DNA from: a virus
Length of the DNA stretch: 61,620 nt
IMG/VR virus record: IMGVR_UViG_3300028559_000041
Location: 1 to 61,620 of that record
Direction: 5' to 3' (one strand)
The translations under genes were made by a program, and so were the position numbers. Below are positions 12,543 through 59,372 of this stretch, one piece after another; the first letter of the stretch is position 1; each line of letters starts with the position of its first letter. The notes beneath the pieces are model-generated. The model worked only from the letters and a program-made list of their open reading frames with translations. It was not told the origin of the DNA and made no database searches.

Positions 12543-13151
12543 CTATTTGGTTAAATTTTGTATTCTTTTTTCTTCCTCTTTCATTTGAGTTTCAAAATCT
12601 CTTTTTCTTTTGTCATAATTGGTTTGATCAAGATTCAACTCCTTCATATTTTTATTAATATTAAAATCAATCTTCTTTAAATAGTCTTGATTTTTCTTAA
12701 TTTTATCTAAAATATCGGTCTTATCTTCTGTATTAGTCACTTCTAATAGGTCATCTTTGAGATTATATATATTCTGTTGTATATCTATTTTACGAGACTT
12801 ATCATCAGAAATACTTTTCTTTGTTTTTCTAACTCTTCTAGTTAGTCTTAATATATTCTCATATTCTTGAATATATCTATTTCTTCCTTGGTCTTGTTTA
12901 TTGTTCTTATAAACTGAATCCATGAGTTCCTTTCTTAAATCAACGTCATTAAGATTCTTCTTAAAAATATCATCTACCATCTGTCGTTTTTGTCTAAAAT
13001 CTTGAAGTGATTTTTGAATTTTTGACAATGTATCTTTATGTGTCTGTGCTGTTGCTTTATCAAGATCCGGATTAGGTTCAACCGGTGATATATCATCACT
13101 TGTTATCTCTTCTTCTGCCTCAAAAACTCTCCATTCCTTTATAAACTTCAT
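12543..13151 (-). CDS. Tagged coiled-coil protein
   Basis: 202 residues starting MKFIKEWRVFEAEEE, a clear tag. The remainder (residues 30-200) is almost entirely charged heptad-like helix, rich in K, E, D and Q, with no hydrophobic segment. I do not recognise a family. A head-internal or scaffold-like role would fit the tag and the coiled coil but is only inferred. A TTAATATATA box lies 4 bases before the start. Confidence 0.75.
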   Translation of the reverse strand: MKFIKEWRVFEAEEEITSDDISPVEPNPDLDKATAQTHKDTLSKIQKSLQDFRQKRQMVDDIFKKNLNDVDLRKELMDSVYKNNKQDQGRNRYIQEYENILRLTRRVRKTKKSISDDKSRKIDIQQNIYNLKDDLLEVTNTEDKTDILDKIKKNQDYLKKIDFNINKNMKELNLDQTNYDKRKRDFETQMKEEEKRIQNLTK

Positions 13152-13185: not shown

Positions 13186-13587
13186 CTATTTAAAGAATTT
13201 AGAGATTTTATCTACTTTAAACTTACTCTTTCTTTCATATTCATCTAGAAGATACCAAAGATTTCTACAAGTTCCGGAATATACATCATATGTAACATTA
13301 TTAACAACCAACTTCCAAGTAGGTTTTTTAATAACTTCAATTACAAAGATTTCCCCATCTATTTTAAGAGAAATAGTCATTTTGAAATCTCCATAGTCTG
13401 CTAAATTATATCTATTTATCTTACCTATCATTTCAACTTTAGGATCTGAATCTCCCTTTAGAAATTTCTCAACTTTTGCGACAATATCCTTGCCTAATTC
13501 TTTATGCTCAGGACCCATAAAAAGTCTTTTGAGTCCTCTTGTAAGATCGCTCTCAGAAATAAAACTACTATATCGTTGTATCTTCAT
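13186..13587 (-). CDS. Small tagged protein of unknown function
   Basis: 133 residues starting MKIQRYSSFISESD, a variant tag with F-I-S-E. The body alternates strands and helices, with the stretch FKMTISLKIDGEIFVIEVIK in the middle. Its ATG overlaps the stop of the 13587 gene as TAATG, so the two are co-translated. Family unknown. Confidence 0.7.
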   Translation of the reverse strand: MKIQRYSSFISESDLTRGLKRLFMGPEHKELGKDIVAKVEKFLKGDSDPKVEMIGKINRYNLADYGDFKMTISLKIDGEIFVIEVIKKPTWKLVVNNVTYDVYSGTCRNLWYLLDEYERKSKFKVDKISKFFK

Positions 13588-16364
13588 TACAATCTACTAT
13601 TTTTTAGTATAATTACAGCATTTGGTAATTTTGAATTTAAAGGCTCAAATTTACCTCTTAATACAGGTTTAAAATCTTTATAGGGTTTATTCTCATCTGG
13701 ATTTTCACCAGCACTCATCAAAACTTCTATACTTTTAACAGGATATTCAATTTTTTTAGCAGGATTATTTTGATTTCCAGCATCCTCCAATGATATATAG
13801 TTGATATTACATTTATCATTAACTTTTAATTTACCGACTATCCTTCCATAATTAACAGTGGATGTTGGTGTCTTATTACCATCAGGCAATAGAACTTTAG
13901 CCATATCAAAAGCATATCCTATTCGAGAGAAAAACATATTACCCATTTTTTTATCAGCAATAAACTCATGAACACATGCATAATAAGTAACCTCTTTATT
14001 ATCCTTATCAATAACCTTAAATCTAAAAGATAATCCCTTAGTCTCCTCTTTATCTCTCTTAATAATTTCGAATAGGTCTTCTCCTTTTAATCCTGATGCA
14101 CTTAATTTAACCCATTTAGTTTTGACTTGCTTTATTCCATCAGCTATTGGAGCAATCTCATTTAGGTCAATAAAACCCTGTGTTTCAGGCTTGTCTGATT
14201 TAGGAGCTAATCCAAAGTATTCCTCATAGAATTTATACATCGCACTTCCTTTATCACCACCATAAGAACCACTACCACCAGAATACATACTGTTATCATC
14301 ATTTAACTTATTAATAAATCTTAATAACATTTTACCTGGTGCTTTAACCGTATCACCAGCTTTAACTTTACCACCTTCAGTATTTTGAAAGGAAAGTGTT
14401 GTATTTTCTGAGAAAATAGGTTTATATTTGGTATCGGCTAAAATTGAATCAACTCCTTCTTTCCATTTATCAAATATTTTAATATTTCTATATGGCCCTC
14501 CTCCTGGTTGAGTAGGACTTCCACCAGATCCTGATCCCATATATTCATATTCATTATAAACGGATACTGATACTTTACCATCAGTTCTTCCTGAAGGAAT
14601 AGCACCCGGTGTGTGTAGTCTATAAGCTCGACTAAACAGTCGAATAATACTCATTATTGGATCAGCAGCATTTTGTATAAGTATTTTACCACCTGGTCGT
14701 TCTTTTGTCTTTTTAAGTTCTTCAATCTCCTCATCTGTAAAAGATATTTTTTCTTGTATCTCCGCTGTAAAAAATTCTTCAAATTTAGTTTTTATTTCTT
14801 CTGAATTGTTATTTTTCTCAAGTAGTGAGTTCACAAAAGATCCATATCTAAAAATAAATGAGTCGTTTTGTTTTTCTGGCTCTTTTTCTTCTTTTTCTTT
14901 GGATGAGTCAAGATTTTTCTCTGTACTAGTCGTTTCGGTTGGTTTCTTTTTTTTAACTGGATTACTACCTATAGAACCCATAACTTCCTTCATTGTTTTA
15001 TTAAATTCTTCAAGTGGTCGTCCTAAATCGCCCATTCCACCATATAAATTCTCTCCCTCAAATTGGAATGCTCTTTTACAAAATCTTGCAATTTTTTCAG
15101 CAACAACTACAATTTTCTTATCATCAGATAAAATCTCAATACTTTCTTTATAAAGAGCATCTCTTTCTTGTATAGTTAATTTTTTATCACCATCAAGATA
15201 TCTTTTTATTTCACGATAAAGTTTATAAATAGTTTCTTTGTTTTTAGAATCTAAAGCCGATTTAGTAATATTATTAATGAAAACACTATCAACACCAATA
15301 CCCTTTTCTTTAGAAGATATAAGAACATCTATGTCTTTCTTTAACTTAGAAAATGCTTGTTCAAGGTGTGATTCACCGGACTTCACCTCACCTTTCGCAC
15401 CACCAGATTTTATCACACCTCTATTTTCTCCACCACCAACACCAAGTGTTGCCTCACTTAAAAAAAGACTTTCATTAACTTCAACCAACTTACCTTTTTC
15501 AGTTTTATAGGAACCTAAACTTATTTTTAATCCTGCCTTAAGTGACATATTATCTTTATTACCTTTTGGTGCTATTTTAGGATCTTTATTAAAAGATTCT
15601 TGTTGGTCTTTTAGAGGCTTTGGATTTTTAGCCCAAATTTTAGCAGAATCCCATTTTAATTTATTTTCAGGACTGGCTACGATCTTAGCAACCGTATCAT
15701 TTGCTTTAGTAATATAGACTATTTTATCTATAGCTTCCGTATTAACTGAAACTCCACGACCTGAATTTCCACCATTAGTCTTATATTGACTTAGTAATGA
15801 TCCAAGTGATTTCAAATTTTTAATCATCAACGGATATAAATTTTTCCCGTCTCCTTCTTCACCGCCTTCACCTTCTCCTTCACCCTCGCCTTCACCTTCT
15901 CCTTCACCCTCGCCTTCACCCTCACCTTCTTCCTCAGAATCTTCTAATTCTTCCAAGAATTCAATGAATGAATCAATAGCTTCTAAAATATTATCTTTGT
16001 CCTCTAGTTCAGATATTGAATCTACTTCCTCTCTTAACCTTTTAGTAGTATTTAATATAGTAGATACTTCCTCTTCGTCCTCTACTTGTTTTTTTAGAGT
16101 AGAGAAAAAAGTCCATAGTTTCAACTTCACTATTCTAGATTGATCTATATCAGCTTTTCCCTCTTCAATTAGTCTATCGAACTCTGTTCTAAGACCACTA
16201 ATCACCTTATCTATTCTTTTAGCTTTGATAGCTATTCCTGCCTTTCTAGCAATTGAATTTATAAGTCTACCAATAAGTGAATCTCCCCAAGGGATATCAT
16301 TAGTAATTGCTTCGTTTGTAATATTTTTTTTCAGAAATTGATCTCTGCGTAATATTTTGCTCAT
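13587..16364 (-). CDS. Large tagged protein with Gly-Glu repeat, probable virion protein
   Basis: 925 residues from the ATG at 16364 (MSKILRRDQFLKKNITNEAI), chosen over the longer frame because it gives the tag-like head R-D-x-F-L-x-x-x-x-N-E-A seen in other large tagged phage proteins. Residues about 155-180 are a run of alternating Glu and Gly. Later parts are hydrophilic with long helices and a Gly/Ser-rich stretch (about residues 620-640). No enzyme motif seen. Size, tag and position beside tail genes suggest a virion protein, but the exact role is unknown. Confidence 0.65.
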   Translation of the reverse strand: MSKILRRDQFLKKNITNEAITNDIPWGDSLIGRLINSIARKAGIAIKAKRIDKVISGLRTEFDRLIEEGKADIDQSRIVKLKLWTFFSTLKKQVEDEEEVSTILNTTKRLREEVDSISELEDKDNILEAIDSFIEFLEELEDSEEEGEGEGEGEGEGEGEGEGEGEGGEEGDGKNLYPLMIKNLKSLGSLLSQYKTNGGNSGRGVSVNTEAIDKIVYITKANDTVAKIVASPENKLKWDSAKIWAKNPKPLKDQQESFNKDPKIAPKGNKDNMSLKAGLKISLGSYKTEKGKLVEVNESLFLSEATLGVGGGENRGVIKSGGAKGEVKSGESHLEQAFSKLKKDIDVLISSKEKGIGVDSVFINNITKSALDSKNKETIYKLYREIKRYLDGDKKLTIQERDALYKESIEILSDDKKIVVVAEKIARFCKRAFQFEGENLYGGMGDLGRPLEEFNKTMKEVMGSIGSNPVKKKKPTETTSTEKNLDSSKEKEEKEPEKQNDSFIFRYGSFVNSLLEKNNNSEEIKTKFEEFFTAEIQEKISFTDEEIEELKKTKERPGGKILIQNAADPIMSIIRLFSRAYRLHTPGAIPSGRTDGKVSVSVYNEYEYMGSGSGGSPTQPGGGPYRNIKIFDKWKEGVDSILADTKYKPIFSENTTLSFQNTEGGKVKAGDTVKAPGKMLLRFINKLNDDNSMYSGGSGSYGGDKGSAMYKFYEEYFGLAPKSDKPETQGFIDLNEIAPIADGIKQVKTKWVKLSASGLKGEDLFEIIKRDKEETKGLSFRFKVIDKDNKEVTYYACVHEFIADKKMGNMFFSRIGYAFDMAKVLLPDGNKTPTSTVNYGRIVGKLKVNDKCNINYISLEDAGNQNNPAKKIEYPVKSIEVLMSAGENPDENKPYKDFKPVLRGKFEPLNSKLPNAVIILKNSRL
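15861..15930 (-). repeat. Gly-Glu coding repeat
   Basis: Tandem 6-base units encoding (EG)n in the 925-residue protein. The strand shows alternating ccttca and ccctcg-type units, prone to slippage and length change. Confidence 0.85.
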
Positions 16365-25168: not shown

Positions 25169-25747
25169 ATGAAGCATCTAAGAAAATTTGAAAAACACAG
25201 AAACTTGAGAAAATCATCCGGTGAAGTAAAAAATCCCGTTAATGAGTCAGTTCTACAAGTTAATGATATCTACAAAGTAAGAGTTTTGGTAGATGTTCCA
25301 CAATCACTAGTTAATTCTTATGTGAAGAAAGCAAAAGATGAGTTAGGTAAAAACGTTCGTCAATTTTACGGAGACATGGATATAGCTGAAGAATTGGTTA
25401 AAAACGTCGTAATGGCAGGACTAACAATAGATACTATACCAGCAACTTCTTTAGTTGGTGGAGAGGCACAAACACAGGCTCAAGGACAATCTCAACCTCA
25501 GGTTCAAGTAGAGCCGCAAGCACAGCCGCAAGCACAGCCGCAAGCACAGCCGCAAGCACAGCCTCAAGCACAGCCGCAAGCACAGCCGCAAGCACAGGCA
25601 CAACCTCAAGGACAATCTCAACCTCAAGTTCAAGTAGAAGCACAGCCGCAAGGTGAAGGAGAATATGAAGAGGTTGGTGATGAAGATGAAGAAAAAGAAG
25701 AGGGTCAAGAAGAAGAAGAAACTGGCGAAGAAGAACTTCCGATTTAA
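25169..25747 (+). CDS. Tagged protein with Gln-Ala-Pro repeat
   Basis: 192 residues starting MKHLRKFEKHRNLRKS, a tag variant. Residues 30-90 form a compact domain of unknown type. Residues 95-160 are a low-complexity Q-A-Q-P repeat, and the end is a run of Glu and Asp. Such flexible tails are common in virion proteins. Upstream TATAATATATAACTAATAAA may be its promoter. Function unknown. Confidence 0.7.
   Translation: MKHLRKFEKHRNLRKSSGEVKNPVNESVLQVNDIYKVRVLVDVPQSLVNSYVKKAKDELGKNVRQFYGDMDIAEELVKNVVMAGLTIDTIPATSLVGGEAQTQAQGQSQPQVQVEPQAQPQAQPQAQPQAQPQAQPQAQPQAQAQPQGQSQPQVQVEAQPQGEGEYEEVGDEDEEKEEGQEEEETGEEELPI
25511..25605 (+). repeat. 12-base tandem repeat encoding QAQP
   Basis: About seven copies of cagccgcaagca with few changes. 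It is much more GC-rich than its surroundings and probably expands and shrinks by slippage. Confidence 0.9.
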
Positions 25748-26453: not shown

Positions 26454-27071
26454 ATGAGATTCATTAAGACATTTGAAAATTACGAACAGTCCGATATATT
26501 AATAATCATTGACGTCCAGAAATCATTTAAGAAATTCTTTACTGAGATGTATATAAATCAGTTAACTAAGTATTGTAATAACTTTAATGAAGTATATCAA
26601 ATATGGGACAATCACATAGACGGTAAAAATGTAGATAAGGACTATCTATATGATGATGAACCGGAAATTCCTATACATGATGACTTATATCATTTTCCAA
26701 ATCAAAAAGATATCATAGAAAAAAGATATAACTATGATGTAGATGCTGATTTCTATAAGAAAATATTAGACAAAGAAGTTTATGACAAGATAAGTGATAT
26801 GGAAGAATCTAAATCATTAAAAAAAGGTGATATATTTCCAACAAAAGAGGGAACCGTTATAACATATATTGGAAACAAACACGTTTGGTTTCACTGTCCT
26901 AAAAAACTTTATGAATTACTAAATAGTTTAAAGGGTAAAAACATCAAAATAGTAGGTGGTTCTGACTCAGAATGTTTAGAAGATGTCTTCACATTGGCTG
27001 AAAAAATAGGTTTAAATATTAAAAGAGACCACAGATATATCTGGTCAGCAAATCATTGCCCAATAAAATGA
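26454..27071 (+). CDS. Tagged isochorismatase-like cysteine hydrolase
   Basis: 205 residues starting MRFIKTFENYEQSD, the shared tag, running straight into DILIIIDVQKSFKKFF. D20 with the following V-Q is the catalytic Asp strand of the isochorismatase/nicotinamidase fold. Near the C-terminus IKIVGGSDSECLEDV with C173 fits the catalytic Cys helix, followed by A-x-x-x-G-L-N-I. A central insertion rich in Asp and Glu is unlike nicotinamidase, so the substrate is open. The family includes enzymes that hydrolyse amides such as nicotinamide. It is coupled to the next gene by ATGA. Confidence in the fold is moderate. Confidence 0.55.
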   Translation: MRFIKTFENYEQSDILIIIDVQKSFKKFFTEMYINQLTKYCNNFNEVYQIWDNHIDGKNVDKDYLYDDEPEIPIHDDLYHFPNQKDIIEKRYNYDVDADFYKKILDKEVYDKISDMEESKSLKKGDIFPTKEGTVITYIGNKHVWFHCPKKLYELLNSLKGKNIKIVGGSDSECLEDVFTLAEKIGLNIKRDHRYIWSANHCPIK

Positions 27072-43817: not shown

Positions 43818-44117
43818 TTATTTACTTTTTGATTCGTTACTAACGTGACCTATTTTTCTATCCATTTCATCAAGAGTATTTACAACCTTTTCTGGGAAAA
43901 ATTGATTTAACTTTTGAATAGTAGAATCGTCATCATAGTAATATAATTGATTATCAATAACCGATATTTCGCCTTGTGAAATCATACTAGATATGATAGG
44001 ATCAGTAAGATAGTTCATCTCAGAGTCAGATATAGATATAGATATAACATTTTCAACACCTGGACCAGGAGGAATGTTATTAGATTCATTAATAAATTGT
44101 AAATATGTCTTTATCAT
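43818..44117 (-). CDS. Small tagged protein
   Basis: 99 residues starting MIKTYLQFINESNNIPPGPG. This tag is the closest in the window to T4's MKTYQEFIAE. The rest is acidic with a Y-Y-Y-D-D-D motif and ends in Ser/Lys. Unknown function. It is divergent from the phosphoesterase at 44181. Confidence 0.7.
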   Translation of the reverse strand: MIKTYLQFINESNNIPPGPGVENVISISISDSEMNYLTDPIISSMISQGEISVIDNQLYYYDDDSTIQKLNQFFPEKVVNTLDEMDRKIGHVSNESKSK

Positions 44118-48105: not shown

Positions 48106-48146
48106 TGAAAACACTAAAAATTATTCATGAATATTTCTCAAGTTAA
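48105..48146 (+). other. 13-codon tag frame out of phase with the WYL-like gene
   Basis: ATG at 48105 opens MKTLKIIHEYFSS and then stops. The peptide is a good match to the tag found at the start of other proteins, but the following gene (48127) is in a different frame and starts inside it. Either a one-base indel cut the tag off the gene, or a ribosomal frameshift joins them, or it is a leader peptide. Confidence 0.45.
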
Positions 48147-49032
48147 ATCTTTCTTTAATCGTAAGCCTGTTGAATTTATAGTTAAGGAATCTTATAATGA
48201 TCTTAAAGAAGATAGAGAGTTTATTCCTAGATTCTCACTTAAAAACATTAAGGACTTCCAAAATGTTCCTATAAACTCACCAATTAAATATGATGAAAAG
48301 CTTTTGATTAAAGCTATTCAATATGGAATGATATTTTTGATTAACTATAAAGGAGAAAAAGATAAATTATTTAGTGGTCATGAAAGAGTTATTTATCCTA
48401 TGGTTTTGGGAAGATCCGCACAAGGTAAGACTTTACTTAGAGGATGGCATTTAAATGGATGGTCTGTTTCTAAAAATAGACATATAAATAAAATATGGAG
48501 ACTTTTTAGGACAGATAGAATTTTATCTATGACTTTTACAGGATCATTCTACAGACTTCCACCAGCGGGTTATAACATGAATGATAAAGGAATGAGAGGG
48601 GGACTAATTGTAAGTGCTGATTTCAACGCTATTAGAAGAAATCAACAAAATTTGGTTCAACAAAATGTAATTCAAAATAGAGAAGACGTATCATTGAGTC
48701 AAGATGAGAGAAAATTTGTAACGATAAGAGTAAAAGGAACAGATTCTAAACTAGACCTAAACAAACCACTTGATAACGCATATATAAATAACCTTAAAAA
48801 TGTTGAAAATGTTAGAATATCATTCCTAAAGAGTATATATGGGAACCAGTATGTCGCAATACTTGGTGCAATGGGTGAGCCAGGAAATACTGTTAAAATA
48901 TTAGATGATAAAGGTAAAAATTTAGGAGTTTATAAAGTTTTAGATTCAACAACGGGTCAAATACTTAAAAGTATTACTAAAGTAAAGGGTAATTCACTCT
49001 ATGATTTATACATTTTTGATAAAAAGATTTAA
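48127..49032 (+). CDS. WYL-like domain protein
   Basis: 301 residues from the ATG at 48127. Residues 55-155 look like a WYL-type Sm-fold ligand-sensing domain: MIFLINYKGE, then ERVIYPMVLGRSAQGKTLLR, RLFRTDRILSM and PPAGYNMND. The second half (200-301) is a separate beta-rich domain with GNQYVAILGAMGEPGNTVKI. WYL domains usually regulate transcription or sense nucleic acids, including in defence systems. No DNA-binding helix-turn-helix is seen, so it may be a virion or effector protein. See the out-of-phase tag at 48105. Confidence 0.55.
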   Translation: MNISQVKSFFNRKPVEFIVKESYNDLKEDREFIPRFSLKNIKDFQNVPINSPIKYDEKLLIKAIQYGMIFLINYKGEKDKLFSGHERVIYPMVLGRSAQGKTLLRGWHLNGWSVSKNRHINKIWRLFRTDRILSMTFTGSFYRLPPAGYNMNDKGMRGGLIVSADFNAIRRNQQNLVQQNVIQNREDVSLSQDERKFVTIRVKGTDSKLDLNKPLDNAYINNLKNVENVRISFLKSIYGNQYVAILGAMGEPGNTVKILDDKGKNLGVYKVLDSTTGQILKSITKVKGNSLYDLYIFDKKI

Positions 49033-49038
49033 TATATA
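49029..49038 (+). promoter_or_regulatory. TTAATATATA box before the PPK2 gene
   Basis: Exact copy overlapping the stop of the previous gene and ending 4 bases before the ATG at 49043. Confidence 0.3.
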
Positions 49039-49042
49039 ATAT

Positions 49043-50194
49043 ATGTTACGATATTTAAAACACATAAAAGAAGAATTAAACATCAGCAAAATGACTGATG
49101 CCGATTTTAGTAATTTATTAAAAAATATTACTACTAATCTGGATCAATATAAAAATTCAATATTATTTAATATTGAATATAATCTTAAAACCAATAAAAT
49201 TGAGTATAAAGATTTTAATAATATCAATGTACCTCAAATTATATCACAACTAAATTCAAGTTTAGGAAAAGATATTGTAGATCAATTTAATATTGAATCT
49301 TTTCTAAGAAAAATTAATCAAATTTTAGATTTGAAGAAAAGAAATACTAAAAAGAAGATTAAAGAAGAATTTATAAGTTATTATTCTTCATTAGAAGATA
49401 GATTTGAAGAAGAATCACAAGATTCTAAAGAAGAAGACCATTTTGATAGAGTAGAAGGAGAACACTCTCTAATAACACGTAGAAAATATGAAGATGAGAA
49501 ATATGATATTCAAGTTGAATTAATGAAACTACAAGAATGGGTTATTAAAAATAATGAAAGAGTTGCAATTGTTTTTGAAGGTAGAGATTCAGCTGGTAAA
49601 GGTTCAACTATTAAAAGATTTATTGAGTATTTAAATCCTAAACACTTCAGAGTTGTTGCTCTTGGATTACCAACAGAAGAAGAGAAGAATAATTGGTTTG
49701 GTAGATATGAAAAACACTTACCAAACCCAGGTGAAATTGTTTTCTTTGATAGATCTTGGTATAATAGAGGAGTTGTTGAACCAGCAATGGGTTATTGCAG
49801 CGAAGAACAATATATGAACTTTATAGAAAATGTTGGAGATTGGGAGGAATCAATGATTAAAAAAGGATTAATTCTAATTAAATTCTGGTTTTCTATAACA
49901 AAAGAGAAACAACAATTAAGATTTGAGTTAAGAAAACAATCACCTTTAAAGTATTGGAAGTTTTCACCAAATGATGCAAAAGTTGTTGATAAATGGGACA
50001 TAATAACCAATTATAAGAATCAAATGTTTAATAAAACTTCAACAAGAATGTCGCCTTGGGTGATAATAAATTCTAACGATAAAAAAATAGGAAGATTAAA
50101 TGCAATGAGATATGTTTTAGATAAAATAAAATATGACAATAAAGATGAAACAAAATGTCATTGGTATCCAGAAGTAGTAAATATTTTAAAATAA
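49043..50194 (+). CDS. Tagged PPK2-type polyphosphate kinase
   Basis: 383 residues. The start MLRYLKHIKEELNISK resembles the tag. Residues 20-160 are an added helical, acidic region. The PPK2 core follows: Walker A FEGRDSAGKGSTIKRF (about 176-191), lid and Y-L-N-P-K-H-F, Walker B FFDRSWYNRGVVEP (about 233-246), and the end W-V-I-I-N-S-N-D-K-K-x-x-R-L-N-A. PPK2 moves phosphate between polyphosphate and nucleotides, usually to make ATP or GTP from the diphosphate. If packaged, it could support energy supply at infection. It ends in a strong terminator. Confidence 0.88.
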   Translation: MLRYLKHIKEELNISKMTDADFSNLLKNITTNLDQYKNSILFNIEYNLKTNKIEYKDFNNINVPQIISQLNSSLGKDIVDQFNIESFLRKINQILDLKKRNTKKKIKEEFISYYSSLEDRFEEESQDSKEEDHFDRVEGEHSLITRRKYEDEKYDIQVELMKLQEWVIKNNERVAIVFEGRDSAGKGSTIKRFIEYLNPKHFRVVALGLPTEEEKNNWFGRYEKHLPNPGEIVFFDRSWYNRGVVEPAMGYCSEEQYMNFIENVGDWEESMIKKGLILIKFWFSITKEKQQLRFELRKQSPLKYWKFSPNDAKVVDKWDIITNYKNQMFNKTSTRMSPWVIINSNDKKIGRLNAMRYVLDKIKYDNKDETKCHWYPEVVNILK

Positions 50195-51787: not shown

Positions 51788-52396
51788 ATGAAAATAATAT
51801 GTATTTACTCTATAAAAAATATGGAAAATGAAAAGATATATATCGGTAGTTCAGTTGATTTCAATAGAAGGAAAAGAGTGCATTTAAATTTACTTTTTAA
51901 AAATAAACATCACTCAATAAAGCTTCAAAATAGTTTTAATAAACATGGATTTGATAAATTTCATTTTAGTATTTTAGAAATGGTTGACAGTATCGATTTA
52001 TTAATAGAAATTGAGCAAAAATATTTAACAAAACTTAAACCGGATTTAAATATGACACATATAGCTGGATTAAACTCACATATCGGCTTAAAAAGGAGTG
52101 AAACAACTAAAGAGAAAATAAGATTGTCAAATACTGGAAAATTAACATCAGAAGAGACTAAAGAAAAACTTAGACAACATAACTTAGGAAAAAAACAAAG
52201 TAAGGAGACAAAAGATAAAAAGGCAAAAGCACTTTACAAACCAATTATACAAATCAAAAATGATGGAGAAACGATTGAATGGGAGAGTGCAACAGTTGCA
52301 TCCAATGTATTAGGTATAAGTAGAAGAGTAATATATGCGTGTCTTTGGGGCACAAAAAAGACCTATAAAAAAAGTAAATGGATTTATAAAAAATAA
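51788..52396 (+). CDS. GIY-YIG homing endonuclease
   Basis: 202 residues. Nuclease domain: CIYSIKN (residues 5-11), KIYIGSS (16-22), R27/R30, and the catalytic Glu in IEIEQKYL (about 74-81). Two NUMOD3-type pieces follow (G-L-K-R-S-E-T-T-K-E-K, L-T-S-E-E-T-K-E-K), then a NUMOD1-type DNA-binding domain (SATVASNVLGISRRVIYACL) and the end KTYKKSKWIYKK. It is inserted between the 51343 gene and the NAD salvage operon, which starts four bases after its stop. Confidence 0.93.
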   Translation: MKIICIYSIKNMENEKIYIGSSVDFNRRKRVHLNLLFKNKHHSIKLQNSFNKHGFDKFHFSILEMVDSIDLLIEIEQKYLTKLKPDLNMTHIAGLNSHIGLKRSETTKEKIRLSNTGKLTSEETKEKLRQHNLGKKQSKETKDKKAKALYKPIIQIKNDGETIEWESATVASNVLGISRRVIYACLWGTKKTYKKSKWIYKK

Positions 52397-52400
52397 AAAA

Positions 52401-53336
52401 ATGAAAAGTTTAGAAGAATATCAAATTGGATGTGTATGTGGTAGATTTCAAGTACATGAACTACACGATGCTCATAGATATGTTATCGACCAAGTTGTTA
52501 ATAATCACAAAAAATCAATTATATTTTTAGGAGTTCCTAAAGTAGTTGGTACTAAAAAGAATCCACTAGACTTCGATACTCGTAAAAAGATGATTCAATC
52601 ATCTTATCCAGACACATTGATACTATCACTTCCCGATATAGGTGATGATTTTAAATGGACTGCTGAATTGGACAAAAGAATTAGAGAAGTCTATCCAATA
52701 GGTGATGTTGTTTTATATGGTGGTAGAGATTCTTTCATACCATATTATCAAAAAGGAAAAGGACAATTTGATTGTAAAGAATTAGACCAATATACATTCG
52801 TATCTGGAACAGAAGTTCGAAAAATTGTATCCGAAACAGTTAAAAATTCTACCGATTTTAGAGCTGGTGTTATTTATAACGCCTACAACCAATATCCAAA
52901 AGTTCACCCTTGTGTAGATATAGCTATTTTAGATGAAAACTGTACTATGATTCTCTTAGCAAAAAGACCATATGAAAGTGGTTGGAGATTTATTGGTGGA
53001 TTCGCACATCCAAGCGATTCATCATATGAATCAACAGCAAAAAGAAAGATATCTCAAGATGCAGGTGATAACTTAGAAACATCAGATCTTGCCTATATTA
53101 ATAGCACAATGATTCCAGACTGGAGATATCGGGGAGAAGAAGATAAAATCATTAGTGTCTTGTATAAGACAAAATATATTGGTGGAGTAATTGAACCATC
53201 CGATGATGTAAGCGAACTTAAATGGTGGAATTTACATGATATATCACAATATTGGTTTGATGTAGAAGATAATGTAGTTGGACCAATTGTTGATGAACAT
53301 AAACCTTTATTAAAAATACTTTTAAAAAATATATGA
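52401..53336 (+). CDS. NMN adenylyltransferase fused to a degenerate Nudix domain (NadM-Nudix)
   Basis: 311 residues from the ATG at 52401; the longer frame runs back into the GIY-YIG gene. N-terminal nucleotidyltransferase: GRFQVHELHDAH (residues 14-25), DVVLYGGRDS (102-111) and SGTEVRKIV (135-143). It makes NAD from NMN and ATP. The C-terminal Nudix fold begins WRFIGGFAHP, but where active enzymes have R-E-x-x-E-E-x-G this one reads RKISQDAG (215-222), so the metal-binding Glu residues are lost. The layout is that of KVP40 NatV. First gene of the NAD operon, coupled to the next by ATGA. Confidence 0.88.
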   Translation: MKSLEEYQIGCVCGRFQVHELHDAHRYVIDQVVNNHKKSIIFLGVPKVVGTKKNPLDFDTRKKMIQSSYPDTLILSLPDIGDDFKWTAELDKRIREVYPIGDVVLYGGRDSFIPYYQKGKGQFDCKELDQYTFVSGTEVRKIVSETVKNSTDFRAGVIYNAYNQYPKVHPCVDIAILDENCTMILLAKRPYESGWRFIGGFAHPSDSSYESTAKRKISQDAGDNLETSDLAYINSTMIPDWRYRGEEDKIISVLYKTKYIGGVIEPSDDVSELKWWNLHDISQYWFDVEDNVVGPIVDEHKPLLKILLKNI

Positions 53337-54424
53337 AAGTAAACCACTCTCCAGTATCGTATTCATCAATTGTTGAGATTGGTGAAAGAACATTACACCT
53401 TGAAAAAACAACAGGTGAAACCTATTTAAAACTACACCGTGGTGTAATGGATGTTGATATGATAGATCTAAACTCATTTATGAGTGATTTCGATTATAAT
53501 CAAAAGTCCGTACAACAATATGGTGGTAATGATGGTGATTCGGTACTAGTTAATGTTATTAAAGATAAGTTTCACTTAAAAGACCATTATGTAATGACTG
53601 TTCCTGGTGGAATGGCAACACTTGATTTGGTTATCAACTCACTATCAGAAGATAATTTTTGGGTTCCAAAGTATCATTGGGGTTCTTGGAATAAAATACT
53701 TAAAATTCATAATAAAAATACTCAAGAGTTCGATGATTTTAATATTGGTGAATTTAAAGCAAATGATCCAATAGTTGGATTCTCAGGAGTTGTGATGTTG
53801 TGTTATCCTTCAAATCCAACCGGATGGTCTCCTGACTTCGAAGATTTGAAAAAGTTCTTAGACCACTCTAAAGAACATAATATTACAGTCATTTTAGACT
53901 TACCATACTATTATCTTTTCAATGATATCGATAATCCTATTCATGAACTATTTTATGATAATGTGATCGTTATATCATCATTTTCTAAATCAATGGGATT
54001 ATCTGGACTTAGAATTGGATACATTGCGACAAAAAATCAAGAGTTGTATAACTCTATGAAAATACGTTCTTTATATAAGTATAACTCAATATCAACAATA
54101 CCACAACAAGTAATAACAAGATTACTAACAACAGAAGGGGGTAAGACATCTTTAGAAAACTATAAAATGAAAACTCAAGACAGTATTACTAAAAATATAC
54201 AATATTTAAAAGAAAGAGGATTCTTATTTGATGAATATCCATCAACTCCAACAGGACCCTTTGCGATTGTTAATATAAATTTTGATATTCTTTTATTTAA
54301 TCGAATATCTTCCGTACCTTTACATAAATTCTCACTCAACAGAACAGTTAACCCACAATATTCAAGAATATCAGTATCAGTACCACACGAAATATTCAAA
54401 CAATACTTTGACAAAATAAATTAA
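53333..54424 (+). CDS. PLP-dependent aminotransferase (class I/II) in NAD operon
   Basis: 363 residues. Fold-type I motifs: MTVPGGMATLDLVINS for cofactor phosphate binding, CYPSNPTGWSPD (about 157-168), VILDLPYYY with the Asp that contacts the pyridine nitrogen, and SSFSKSMGLSGLRIGY with the Schiff-base Lys at about 218. The C-terminal Arg region SRISVSVP is also present. It resembles aspartate or histidinol-phosphate type enzymes, but substrate cannot be fixed. Its place between NadM and NadV, with ATGA coupling, suggests a role tied to NAD or to an amino-acid derivative. Unusual for phages. Confidence 0.85.
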   Translation: MKVNHSPVSYSSIVEIGERTLHLEKTTGETYLKLHRGVMDVDMIDLNSFMSDFDYNQKSVQQYGGNDGDSVLVNVIKDKFHLKDHYVMTVPGGMATLDLVINSLSEDNFWVPKYHWGSWNKILKIHNKNTQEFDDFNIGEFKANDPIVGFSGVVMLCYPSNPTGWSPDFEDLKKFLDHSKEHNITVILDLPYYYLFNDIDNPIHELFYDNVIVISSFSKSMGLSGLRIGYIATKNQELYNSMKIRSLYKYNSISTIPQQVITRLLTTEGGKTSLENYKMKTQDSITKNIQYLKERGFLFDEYPSTPTGPFAIVNINFDILLFNRISSVPLHKFSLNRTVNPQYSRISVSVPHEIFKQYFDKIN

Positions 54425-54431
54425 TAAACAT

Positions 54432-55871
54432 ATGGAACCAAATATCTTATTACTCACAGACTCTTACAAACCAACACACTGGAAACAACTTCCTAAAGGC
54501 GTAACGATTTTAAGATCTTATCTTGAAAGTCGTGGTGGTAAATTTGACAACACTCTATTTTATGGTCTTCAATATATCATAAAAGAGTATCTACAAGGTA
54601 AAGTAATTACTTTGAATAAAATCAATCGTGCTAAATTATTTTGGGACGCACATCTTGGACCAGGTCATTTTAATATGGATGGATGGTTACATATTTTAGA
54701 AAAACATAACGGACACTTACCAGTTATTATTAAAGCTGTTCCAGAGGGAACAGTTGTTCCAACAGGAAATGTTCTTTTGACTATTGAAAATACAGACCCA
54801 GAAGTTCCTTGGTTGACAAACTATCTTGAATCATTACTTTTACAAGTTTGGTATCCAATTACGGTTGGAACACTTTCAAGAGAAGTTAAAAAAGTTCTTG
54901 TCGATTATTTAGTAAAAACATCAGACCATGATGAAAATGGAATTCGTGGAATTGTGAGTTTTATGCTACACGATTTCGGATTCCGTGGAGCATCATCTGT
55001 TGAAAGTGCAGGTATTGGTGCATCTGCTCACCTTATTAACTTTAAAGGAACAGATACTGTTGAAGGTATTCTATTAGCACAAGAGTATTACAATACTTTA
55101 GATATGTTGGCATTTTCAATTCCAGCATCCGAACACTCAACTATTACATCTTGGAGTGAACCACTTGAGGTTAAGGCATTTGAAAATATGTTAGACCAGT
55201 TCCCTACTGGATTGGTAGCTTGTGTATCTGACTCATTTGATATTATCAGAGCTTGTAGAGACCATTGGGGAACTACTTTACGAGATAAAATCTTAAATCG
55301 TGACGGTCGTCTTGTAATTCGTCCTGATAGTGGTGACCCTGTTCAAACATTGAAACAAATCTTTCATATTCTTTGGGATAAATTTGGTGGAACTGTTAAT
55401 AAAAAAGGATTTAAAGTTATTGATCCACACGTCAGAGTAATTCAAGGTGATGGTGTAAACTATGACTCTATTATCGAGATTCTTGATATGATGGTTGAAG
55501 AAGGATTTGCAGCAGAGAATATTGCATTCGGTATGGGTGGTGCTCTTTTACAAAAAGTAGATAGAGATACTCAAAAATTCGCTATCAAATGTTCATCAAT
55601 TGTAATTAATGGTGAAGAAGTTGAGGTTCAAAAGAATCCAATTGAGATTAATGAAAAAGGCGAAAGAGTTAAATCATTTAAAAAGTCAAAAGCAGGTAGA
55701 TTGAAGTTAATTAATAATAATGGAGTATTTGAAACTATCCAACATTGTCAGGATTTTAGTGGTGATATTTTAGTACCTATTTTTGAAAATGGACATATTC
55801 TAAAAGAATGGACATTTGAAGAAGTTCGTGAAAGAGCCGAAGTAAAAATTAATGTTGAGGAATTAGTTTAA
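54432..55871 (+). CDS. nadV: Nicotinamide phosphoribosyltransferase (NadV/Nampt)
   Basis: 479 residues, full length for the family. Conserved blocks: LLTDSYKPTHWKQLPKG at the start, YLESRGG, HDFGFRGASSVESAG, SIPASEHSTITSW with the catalytic His (about 235), RPDSGDPV (about 297-304) and FGMGGALLQKVDRDT. It joins nicotinamide and PRPP to give NMN, which the NadM of the same operon turns into NAD. Phages such as KVP40 carry the same pair, and such pairs can refill NAD drained by host defence NADases. Confidence 0.95.
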   Translation: MEPNILLLTDSYKPTHWKQLPKGVTILRSYLESRGGKFDNTLFYGLQYIIKEYLQGKVITLNKINRAKLFWDAHLGPGHFNMDGWLHILEKHNGHLPVIIKAVPEGTVVPTGNVLLTIENTDPEVPWLTNYLESLLLQVWYPITVGTLSREVKKVLVDYLVKTSDHDENGIRGIVSFMLHDFGFRGASSVESAGIGASAHLINFKGTDTVEGILLAQEYYNTLDMLAFSIPASEHSTITSWSEPLEVKAFENMLDQFPTGLVACVSDSFDIIRACRDHWGTTLRDKILNRDGRLVIRPDSGDPVQTLKQIFHILWDKFGGTVNKKGFKVIDPHVRVIQGDGVNYDSIIEILDMMVEEGFAAENIAFGMGGALLQKVDRDTQKFAIKCSSIVINGEEVEVQKNPIEINEKGERVKSFKKSKAGRLKLINNNGVFETIQHCQDFSGDILVPIFENGHILKEWTFEEVRERAEVKINVEELV

Positions 55872-56685: not shown

Positions 56686-56961
56686 TTACATTTCATCATT
56701 ATCCAAACCAATTGCATAATTCAATTCGTCAAGAACAGCATCAAGAGTAGTATCTACATCATCCTCAGTATAGAAAATTCCATCCCAATATCCAGTAAGT
56801 TGAGGAACATCCTCACGAGCAACAGTACTGTTATAAGTATCCATAATATCTTCAGGTGAAGCAAATTCTCCAAGTTCCATTCTAATTCCTGAATAGACTT
56901 CCGGTATATGGATTTTATCAGAGTTGTCTAAATTTTCATTAAATCTTTTTAAGTATTTCAT
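56686..56961 (-). CDS. Small tagged protein (cluster of six)
   Basis: 91 residues starting MKYLKRFNENLDNSDKIHIP. Very acidic, with D-D-V-D-T-T-L-D near the end. Last gene of the tagged cluster. No family recognised. Confidence 0.7.
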   Translation of the reverse strand: MKYLKRFNENLDNSDKIHIPEVYSGIRMELGEFASPEDIMDTYNSTVAREDVPQLTGYWDGIFYTEDDVDTTLDAVLDELNYAIGLDNDEM

Positions 56962-56997
56962 ATTATTTATTTGTTTTTATTTCTTCATTGGTTGATT

Positions 56998-57585
56998 TTA
57001 CTTCTTTAAATCATCAACTGCCTTTAAGAAAGACTTTAAACTCTTTGTGAGTTCATCTAAAGTTTTAAACTTAGATATCTTACCAGTAAACATATTAACA
57101 ATATCTTTAGGATTTCTGAAAAGATCGTTCGAGAGATACTTGAATGTCTCTTTAGTTTCATCATCAGACTCATTATATAAATCTTTTAATGGTCTTACTA
57201 ACCCATTATAGAGTTTTGGTCTACCATCCTTACTTTCAAAAATGAAACTTTCGGAACTATTAAAAGATGGTGCTATTGCTTTGATGAAGTTTTCATAATC
57301 ATCAAATTTGTATGGCTTTTGAATTGGTGGTGTTGGTTTATAACCTGCTTTAACAGCTGCGTCCAAAACCTGTTCTTCTTTCTCATGAGTTTTTTTACTT
57401 CCAGTAAATGGAAAATTACTACGATCTCCAGTTAAACTCATCATTGAATTTTCGTGATCAACCATTTCTTTTCCCCATAATTCACCACAATCTTGAACCA
57501 TCTTCAAAAGATTTTCGTCTGGTGTAAATATATACGTTTGTGATTCAGTGTTCTCAAACATTTTGAATTTTTTTAAATGTTTCAT
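56998..57585 (-). CDS. Tagged protein (cluster of six)
   Basis: 195 residues starting MKHLKKFKMFENTESQTYIF, a model tag with F-E-N-T-E. Mostly helical, with a Pro-rich turn (YKPTPPIQKPYKF) in the middle and a Lys-rich end. No family recognised. Confidence 0.75.
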   Translation of the reverse strand: MKHLKKFKMFENTESQTYIFTPDENLLKMVQDCGELWGKEMVDHENSMMSLTGDRSNFPFTGSKKTHEKEEQVLDAAVKAGYKPTPPIQKPYKFDDYENFIKAIAPSFNSSESFIFESKDGRPKLYNGLVRPLKDLYNESDDETKETFKYLSNDLFRNPKDIVNMFTGKISKFKTLDELTKSLKSFLKAVDDLKK

Positions 57586-57605
57586 AATTTAGAATTATTT
57601 TTATT

Positions 57606-57615
57606 TATATATTAA
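57606..57615 (-). promoter_or_regulatory. TTAATATATA box within the tagged cluster
   Basis: Exact minus-strand copy, 20 bases before the ATG at 57585. Confidence 0.3.
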
Positions 57616-57617
57616 TT

Positions 57618-58331
57618 TTATTTACTAGATAATCTAATGGTTTCTCCAGTTGATAATTTTTGATATTCGTAACCAATAAACTTCTCTCCTTTTTCCAACA
57701 TTTGAATGCAATAGTGCATCGTTGCCTTATCACCACCTCTAGAATCCTGAACTAATTTACCAGCTAAATCAATTGATTTGTTGGCAAGTGTAACCGCGTC
57801 TTGACCAAATGAATTGATATCATTTGGGTTAATAACACCACCGGCATCACGAAGTTTTATTAAGTAAGCAGTTGTTTTAGCAACATCCAATTCACTGACA
57901 TTACTTAATCCACCATGTTCTTTCATATCATTAATTAAACCAATTGCTAAATTGATATATTCAGTTTCGATAGGTTTTCCAGTTGTGGCTGCATAAGCAG
58001 CACTGCCAGAAATTATTAAAATTAAGATCACTAAAATCGTGATAACTAATACTTTAAACAACACTGGATTTTTTTCTTTAAAACTCCTTATCTTGTTTAT
58101 TATCCAAGAAAAAATCGATTTAACTTTTTGCAATATTTTAAAACCAATTATTACAGATTGAGTCAAAATAGTCCAAAATACATCAACTACTTTTTGTTTA
58201 ATCCATTTTAAAAAATCAAATAAATCTTCATTTAATGAGTCTAAATAATTAAATAAAGTTTCTTTCGAGATTTTATCTTGTAAGAACAATTCAACTGGAT
58301 TGTAGTTATTAAAGGATTCAAGGTGTTTCAT
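57618..58331 (-). CDS. Tagged membrane protein (cluster of six)
   Basis: 237 residues. Starts MKHLESFNNYNPVELFLQDK. An amphipathic helical stretch (residues 40-80) leads to one strong membrane helix (about 90-113, LFKVLVITILVILILIISGS), then a soluble C-terminal domain. If the tag sends it into the capsid, a membrane helix is unexpected; it may insert into the host membrane at injection. Overlaps the 58328 gene by four bases. Confidence 0.75.
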   Translation of the reverse strand: MKHLESFNNYNPVELFLQDKISKETLFNYLDSLNEDLFDFLKWIKQKVVDVFWTILTQSVIIGFKILQKVKSIFSWIINKIRSFKEKNPVLFKVLVITILVILILIISGSAAYAATTGKPIETEYINLAIGLINDMKEHGGLSNVSELDVAKTTAYLIKLRDAGGVINPNDINSFGQDAVTLANKSIDLAGKLVQDSRGGDKATMHYCIQMLEKGEKFIGYEYQKLSTGETIRLSSK

Positions 58332-58621
58332 TTAGCATAATTCGGTGTTCTTCCACTGCCTTTTGAACCTTCTTTTTCAACTTTTCTTTTTCTAGCAACA
58401 GATGCCTTTTTTTGTTTTTTAGTCATTCTAGCAGCTACTCTAACCTTTCTACATTTAGGATATCCACCCTTACTAGTATCAGATCTTCCGCATGGTGGAT
58501 GTGATCCATCAGGATTAGTTTTTGATATATCTACCCACTTTTCCTTGAACCATTTGTCCAAGCCGCCTTTGGTTTTCTTTTCTTCTAATATAAAATCCTC
58601 AAAAAGTAATATATGTTCCAT
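58328..58621 (-). CDS. Tagged basic protein with conserved phage module (cluster of six)
   Basis: 97 residues. Starts MEHILLFEDFILEEKKTKGG, then a module found on its own in many large phages: LDKWFKEKWVDISK, PPCGRSDTSKGGYPKCRK with two Cys, and a very basic end (MTKKQKKASVARKRKVEKEG). The basic charge suggests DNA contact inside the head. Its ATG overlaps the upstream stop (TAATG). Confidence 0.75.
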   Translation of the reverse strand: MEHILLFEDFILEEKKTKGGLDKWFKEKWVDISKTNPDGSHPPCGRSDTSKGGYPKCRKVRVAARMTKKQKKASVARKRKVEKEGSKGSGRTPNYAK

Positions 58622-58986
58622 TATTTCTTACTTGATTTTTTCTTTTTCCATTTACCACCTTTAGACTTATATCTCTTAGCAGCTGCTCCACAGGCATAAG
58701 CGGAAGGCCAAACATCATATTTCGATTTCGCCCAAGCCTTACAGGCATTCCACAGTTTGGAATTTGTCGCAACATTTTTTTCATTTATAATCGATTCTAG
58801 AATATCATCATCGTAGTTGTCATCATCGTAGTTGTCATCATCATCTGGATAATTACACTCTGGGCAACAATCACAATCTTTCTCACCAATACACTCAGGA
58901 CAACATCCACATCCTTTATATTCTGGAAAGAAAATAAAATCGTTTTCTTCTTCGTCAAAATTTTCAAATAGTTTTAAATACTTCAT
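58621..58986 (-). CDS. Tagged Cys-rich protein with conserved phage module (cluster of six)
   Basis: 121 residues. Starts MKYLKLFENFDEEENDF. It has a Cys-rich segment (CGCCPECIGEKDCDCCPEC) that probably binds metal, an Asp-rich run of D-D-D-N-Y, and a C-terminal module NSKLWNACKAWAKSKYDVWP followed by Y-A-C-G-A-A-A-K-R-Y-K-S-K-G-G-K-W, common in large-phage proteins. The last 15 residues are Lys-rich. Function unknown; likely a virion protein. Confidence 0.75.
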   Translation of the reverse strand: MKYLKLFENFDEEENDFIFFPEYKGCGCCPECIGEKDCDCCPECNYPDDDDNYDDDNYDDDILESIINEKNVATNSKLWNACKAWAKSKYDVWPSAYACGAAAKRYKSKGGKWKKKKSSKK

Positions 58987-58990
58987 ATAT

Positions 58991-59353
58991 TTAATTCTTT
59001 TTATAATTATTTAATTTATTTAAAAGTCGTTCAGATTCACTTGTACTATTCCCAACCTTACTAAAAATATCATTAATTACTTCTGTTGGGTCTTCACCCT
59101 CAACAATTCTATGCATCATTTCCTTATAAAGAGGATCTTTTTTATCAATTAACTCTTGTAATTCGATTTTTAAAGCATTAAATGCTGTCCAATATCTAGC
59201 TTCAGAGTCAGATGATAGTCCTGAAACAACAATTTTTGAAAATTGTTTTTCTAGTCTAGTATCTTTACCAAAAATCTCTTCAGCTCTTGATAATGGTTCA
59301 TCATCAGAATCAGAATCATCATTAAATTTTTCAAATAGTTTTAAATACTTCAT
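58991..59353 (-). CDS. Small tagged protein (first of cluster)
   Basis: 120 residues from the ATG at 59353 (MKYLKLFEKFNDDSDSDDEP); an in-frame TTG two codons earlier is less likely. The tag is nearly the same as that of the 58621 gene, and DNA identity there suggests duplication of the tag. The remainder is acidic and helical. No family recognised. Confidence 0.75.
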   Translation of the reverse strand: MKYLKLFEKFNDDSDSDDEPLSRAEEIFGKDTRLEKQFSKIVVSGLSSDSEARYWTAFNALKIELQELIDKKDPLYKEMMHRIVEGEDPTEVINDIFSKVGNSTSESERLLNKLNNYKKN

Positions 59354-59372
59354 AAACAAACTAAATTTTCTT

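Follow-up and report, generated by a model that had tools for sequence, protein, structure and literature searches.

The window analysed here (61,620 nt; positions 1-61,620 of IMG/VR record IMGVR_UViG_3300028559_000041) carries a gene for a polyphosphate kinase of the PPK2 family whose first ten residues resemble the capsid-targeting sequence (CTS) of bacteriophage T4. The reading that we favour, with a probability of about 0.72, is that of a class I PPK2 made late in infection, packaged in the capsid and injected, which would make GTP and ATP from host polyphosphate and GDP or ADP. Packaging, cleavage and activity are predicted from the properties of the gene, its relatives and its surroundings, as described below.

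Catalytic domain and N-terminal extension

The following features were assigned to the gene:

49043-50194, + strand: predicted class I PPK2 gene, 383-aa ORF (PF03976, E = 2e-78; TIGR03707 over cut-off; Foldseek to 4yeg, E = 8e-27)
49097-49417, + strand: folded helical N-terminal domain in the AlphaFold2 model, residues 19-125 (~107 aa), phage-specific, absent from most bacterial PPK2s
49394-49468, + strand: acidic linker, residues 118-142, net charge -9
49478-50149, + strand: PPK2 catalytic domain, residues 146-369
49580-49603, + strand: Walker A GRDSAGKG, residues 180-187; D182 and K186 correspond to Francisella D62 and K66
49745-49768, + strand: Walker B region FDRSWYNR, residues 235-242; D236 and R237 correspond to Francisella D117 and R118
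49919-49951, + strand: lid motif residues R293, R297 and K303, corresponding to Francisella R174, R178 and K184

The ORF reported in the earlier note (ATG at 49043, stop at 50194, 383 aa) was retained, and the complete PPK2 core with both Walker motifs described there was confirmed by matches to Pfam PF03976 (263.5 bits versus a cut-off of 22.3) and to the class I PPK2 model TIGR03707 (309.1 bits versus 301.8). Class I PPK2s use polyphosphate to phosphorylate nucleoside diphosphates and not monophosphates. The window protein was about 49% identical to the Francisella enzyme 4YEG over ~240 columns (117 of 243 aligned residues agreed). Checked singly, all ten active-site residues of the Francisella PPK2 in the catalytic, lid and polyphosphate-pocket groups were present (D62, K66, D117, R118, R174, R178, K184, K228, K229 and R232; for their roles, see PMC4748334 and PMC8776046). 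The AlphaFold2 model (pLDDT 81) adopted the PPK2 fold in the Foldseek comparison. The gene is intact, and the active-site residues are kept in relatives of 60-86% identity. Judged from its sequence, the ORF almost certainly encodes a class I PPK2.

The protein had also been described as bearing an acidic helical extension. Its helical nature was upheld, as residues 19-125 were modelled as helices with a small hairpin (pLDDT about 85-90), which corresponds to a well-predicted folded domain and not to a loose tail. The extension as a whole was not acidic: residues 11-118 have a net charge of +2, the folded domain (residues 19-125) is close to neutral overall, and the acidity is confined to the linker. 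A structural search with the N-terminal domain returned no significant match (best E = 1.2). In bacterial class I PPK2s, Walker A is preceded by a median of 51 residues, to which the phage group adds about 130. Phage PPK2s of the polyprotein type, described below, match part of the domain, from residue 63 onwards; because this part is common to them, the domain was counted as part of the enzyme, not of the tag. The lid of the Sinorhizobium meliloti PPK2 is covered by an N-terminal extension (PMC4748334), and by analogy a lid-covering role is possible for the phage domain. The alternative of a removable long propeptide, as in the giant Salmonella phage SPN3US (PMC5694885), was not favoured, since only one further aliphatic-x-Glu site (IKE108) was present and the domain is well folded.

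The capsid-targeting-like tag

49043-49072, + strand: capsid-targeting-like tag MLRYLKHIKE, residues 1-10; predicted prohead-protease cut after E10; T4 register Y4/I8/E10

The tag-like N-terminus claimed in the earlier note was substantiated, as 18 other N-termini in the window were alike and the PPK2 reached the 1% level in a tag profile. The T4 capsid-targeting sequence is MKTYQEFIAE. The start of the window protein (MLRYLKHIKE/E, the slash marking the predicted cut) aligned to it (MKTYQEFIAE/A) in register and without a gap. In T4, residues 4 and 7 (Tyr and Phe) serve targeting, and residues 8 and 10 govern cleavage within the motif L/I-x-E (PMC9026906). Tyr4 is present in the window tag and residue 7 is His, not the Phe that is important in T4; many relatives have F/Y and F at these positions. 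The cleavage motif is matched by I8-K9-E10, with E10 kept in at least 90% of the aligned sequences.

Of the 33 distinct extended phage PPK2s, which are related and do not constitute 33 independent trials, 21 bear at their N-terminus the pattern [YF]xxx[ILVM]xE, which was derived from T4 and not from the window genome. The pattern occurred in 3.5% of the other stretches in the same PPK2s, in 1.4% of internal-Met peptides (about 1-3.5% elsewhere) and at the N-terminus of none of 66 bacterial PPK2s. A form shorter by one residue, picked post hoc, fitted six more of the 33, and six had no recognisable tag. The letters of the PPK2 tags vary widely (MLKFINFINEEL, MPVYNFHKFINEEL, MISNYDNFMNES, MLKRFQNFILED), with the pattern constant. 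One relative (L004/L081) has another small tagged protein fused ahead of its PPK2. The profile mentioned above was shift-tolerant and trained on another genome, and gave p of about 0.01 by the profile alone. A fixed-register profile trained on the window did not rank the PPK2 (score -8.5, with 43% of null peptides as high); since the T4 CTS itself also failed in it, it was replaced by the shift-tolerant profile and the T4 pattern.

Other tagged proteins and the head machinery

Further tagged proteins were found across the window:

596-1177, + strand: tagged protein (MKHLKSYKIFES)
12543-13151, - strand: tagged protein (MKFIKEWRVFEA), with TAATATATA upstream
26454-27071, + strand: tagged protein (MRFIKTFENYEQ)
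43818-44117, - strand: tagged protein (MIKTYLQFINES), the form closest to the T4 CTS
56686-59359, - strand: six consecutive small tagged proteins

No tag was detected on the RecA, clamp, terminase, sheath, tube and NAMPT proteins of the window. Three related records, LR745206, LR756502 and LR756501, are Bacteroidetes 'Mahaphages' of 635-735 kb. In LR756502.1 (642 kb), about 150 of 867 ORFs were tagged, versus fewer than 6 expected, with the highest density at 0-100 kb (e.g., MKHLKKYKIFES, MKYLKRFNEE and relatives), and the density of [ILMVF]NE at residues 6-15 was 6.4 times that found beyond residue 30. Pfam names among the 60 longest tagged proteins included PPK2, T4 Rnl1-type RNA ligase, lysozyme, NUDIX, methyltransferase, HNH and DHH proteins. 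Some tagged proteins of the window contain long (GE)n and (QAQP)n repeats (13587-16364 and 25169-25747).

Tail and terminase genes are present in the window, a fragment of 61.6 kb; capsid and prohead protease genes were not found in it. In the three Mahaphages and in G001, G003 and G008, an ORF for a gp21-like protease lies directly before the gene for a gp23-like capsid protein. The Pfam matches in this clade were above the cut-off for the capsid protein and just below it for the protease, which has the gene order and a gp21-like start; in three other PPK2 phages (G007, G009, G011), both were above. The predicted cut of the capsid protein in this clade, aligned by eye to T4 gp23, reads H[SQ][IM]NE/N. 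Many PPK2 tags end in FINE/E, matching the predicted capsid site [IM]NE/N, and in LR756501 both read MNE. A single contig (G008) encodes a PPK2 with the tag MLKFINFINE, the protease and the capsid protein. In L230 (5009-7231), L016, L017, L019 and L020, the prohead protease ORF comprises 640-740 aa and is thus roughly three times as long as T4 gp21; its C-terminal part may be a fused scaffold.

Upstream element and gene neighbourhood

49030-49038, + strand: TAATATATA, candidate late-promoter -10-like element, 4 nt before the PPK2 ATG
48127-49032, + strand: conserved 301-aa gene, beside or near PPK2 in most relatives (68-86% identity)

Among the LR756502 genes with an upstream gap of at least 20 nt, TWATATATA preceded 55 of 71 tagged genes (77%) versus 76 of 319 untagged ones (24%); the reversed motif preceded 16 tagged and 26 untagged genes. 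In the tagged and head genes that have it, the element mostly lies 12-16 nt before the ATG, so the messages would be near-leaderless. It was found within 60 nt of 29 of the 33 PPK2 genes, and the four exceptions were all among the six without a recognisable tag. In LR756502, a shorter form, AATATATA, is also found upstream of the capsid, protease, portal-like and terminase genes, and in the window it precedes the sheath and tube genes. The window PPK2, tagged genes, tail sheath and tape measure have the upstream element in common with the head genes of LR756502. Neither it nor the shorter form was present before the RecA, clamp, NAMPT, NadM, aminotransferase and gp47-like genes, and the shorter form was likewise absent before the window terminase gene. 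The T4 late promoter TATAAATA itself showed no enrichment. Given its association with tagged and virion genes, TWATATATA is probably the late promoter of this clade.

The 301-aa gene had no Pfam or PHROG match. In most relatives its conservation exceeds that of PPK2, and by eye the protein shows a faint resemblance to WYL proteins. Downstream of PPK2, an NAD-salvage set at 52335-55871 (a NadM-like/NUDIX fusion, an aminotransferase and NAMPT) has neither the tag nor the late element.

The NAD-salvage genes bear on a first alternative, in which PPK2 is the product of an ordinary auxiliary metabolic gene, acting only inside the infected cell to uphold NTPs, and the tag directs the protein elsewhere (to the membrane, the replication compartment, the outer virion or the tail). 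Their presence downstream fits this alternative, as do the report of virus-encoded ppk1 and ppk2 as auxiliary metabolic genes (PMC13188868) and the second PPK2 of the 735-kb phage LR756501.1 (447796-448668; L228:2797-3669), which is class III-like (TIGR03709) and has neither tag nor extension. However, that same untagged enzyme suggests that no tag is needed for a cytoplasmic role, the late-gene-like element is on PPK2 and not on the NAD genes, and the tag combines the register of the T4 CTS with the cleavage motif of the capsid protein. We consider a purely intracellular role unlikely. Packaging of the window PPK2 in the capsid is likely, in contrast, and the packaging that the earlier note had raised as a possibility is now well supported at the sequence level by the T4-register tag, the protease and capsid motif of the relatives and the late-gene-like element.

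PPK2 in polyproteins and other fusions

A different arrangement was observed in L097, L098, L101 and L104, where PPK2 lies within ORFs of 1,125-1,954 aa. It is flanked there by possible cleavage sites, following a KKIINE/GFFDIL-type site and preceding an RR[RK]L[DN]E-type site (e.g., RRKLNE/EQL). The L098 polyprotein also contains a peptidoglycan-binding domain. The excess of [ILMV]xE in the polyproteins was not significant, and [ILMV]NE enrichment reached significance in only two of five. Head genes were not found on the L097 and L104 contigs. In L099 (3566-5473) and L105, PPK2 is followed by a domain with a HEMEH metallopeptidase-like motif, and the phages that encode them (G011 and G007 among the genomes above) have canonical T4-type head genes with LINE/A capsid sites. 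Polyprotein PPK2 looks like the same cargo taking another processing route, but the enrichment of sites is modest. Phage contigs reaching 330 kb (L111-L120; L115:3845-5491) encode a PPK2 joined to a C-terminal domain that, by eye, resembles HAD-like phosphatases.

Proposed packaging and role of the enzyme

According to the favoured reading, PPK2 would be made late in infection and enter the prohead by means of its T4-type capsid-targeting sequence. The gp21-like prohead protease would then cut behind Glu10, and the packaged enzyme would be injected together with the DNA. In the new host, before phage gene expression, the enzyme would use host polyphosphate to phosphorylate GDP and ADP, yielding GTP and ATP and consuming the polyphosphate. 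The helical domain would stay on the enzyme, where it may cover the lid or set oligomerisation. Both roles put forward in the earlier note, NTP regeneration and polyphosphate draining, are thus ones that we infer for the protein. Provided that the enzyme is packaged, the use of host polyphosphate for GTP and ATP on entry is somewhat favoured.

A packaged PPK2 might also be useful through the opposite reaction, from NTP to polyphosphate, or through the removal of polyphosphate itself, for example by disarming stress or defence signalling. The class I reaction is reversible, with some of the enzymes favouring polyphosphate synthesis (PMC8776046), and no Ppx homologue (Ppx/GppA) was found in eight related records. 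Most characterised class I enzymes nevertheless favour NTP formation (PMC8776046), and an injected enzyme would meet the existing polyphosphate store of the host. Such a benefit is improbable beside the formation of GTP and ATP.

Far less probable is a reading of the conserved starts as a DNA or RNA feature, such as start-codon context or a translation enhancer in an AT-rich genome, instead of a protein tag. The starts are indeed A-rich and follow a promoter-like element that would leave the messages near-leaderless. This explanation is largely refuted by two observations: the amino-acid pattern persists although the synonymous codons inside the tags vary, at frequencies close to those of the genome (His CAC/CAT, 36/32; Glu GAA/GAG, 27/19), and the PPK2 tags differ in sequence and retain the pattern. 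Because the synonymous codons are nearly free, selection acts on the protein sequence of the tag.

Under the favoured reading, the virus would bring an energy-converting enzyme with it on entry and draw on polyphosphate; to our knowledge, no phage is known to use the polyphosphate store in this way. The tag and TWATATATA would together form a simple code that predicts which of the unknown proteins of the largest phages, numbering in the hundreds, travel in the particle. More tentatively, and at slightly less than even odds, at least 100 late proteins of the largest known phages, PPK2 among them, may enter the capsid through one short N-terminal code and be injected as a ready-made set of metabolic and takeover proteins that runs on host polyphosphate, with a second lineage relying on protease-cut polyproteins.

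Distribution and comparison with known systems

PPK2 was present in 15 of 50,697 GenBank phage records. The statement that it is rare in phages therefore holds for GenBank phages but not for this clade of huge phages, in which PPK2 is a standing member. A tree built from 110 PPK2 cores placed the extended forms of phages in two clades (28 and 10 members) apart from the bacterial forms. The least probable explanation is that a host gene was picked up recently and by chance, with no adaptation specific to phages, for although the core is about 50-62% identical to PPK2s of Flavobacteriales, Marinimicrobia and other bacteria, the extended forms make up these two distinct clades, most bacterial forms lack the extension domain, and the gene neighbours are kept.

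Virus-encoded polyphosphate kinases are reportedly the subject of work published in Water Research in 2025. The description of viral ppk1 and ppk2 as auxiliary metabolic genes (PMC13188868) makes no mention of tagging, packaging or extension. The Mahaphages LR745206, LR756501 and LR756502 (PMC7162821) encode the same tagged, extended PPK2 at 43-66% identity; polyphosphate occurs zero times in the main text of that paper and is unmentioned in the further papers checked on huge phages, megaphages and mobilome ATPases. Virus-encoded PPK2 is thus already known; neither a packaged, tagged PPK2 nor the tag regulon appeared in the literature searched, a body that subscription papers mostly lie outside.

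Class I PPK2s of Francisella tularensis (FTT1564, 4YEG/5LLF), Sinorhizobium meliloti (SMc02148, 3CZQ/6DZG) and Pseudomonas aeruginosa (PA0141) share with the window protein the catalytic domain, Walker A and B and the lid arginines. In contrast to these bacterial enzymes, the window protein is phage-encoded and adds the N-terminal helical domain of ~107 aa and the capsid-targeting-like tag. The closest parallel to the proposed delivery is provided by T4 IPI-IPIII and Alt, which carry a CTS cleaved by gp21. The likeness consists of a ten-residue tag of the form aromatic-x3-aliphatic-x-Glu, a late-gene-like upstream signal, and the presence in the same phage group of a gp21-like protease and a gp23-like capsid protein, known here from the genes of relatives alone. 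The window system differs from that of T4 in having a polyphosphate kinase as cargo, His at residue 7 and TWATATATA instead of TATAAATA, and in the scale of tagging, with about 150 tagged ORFs in LR756502 compared with a handful in T4.
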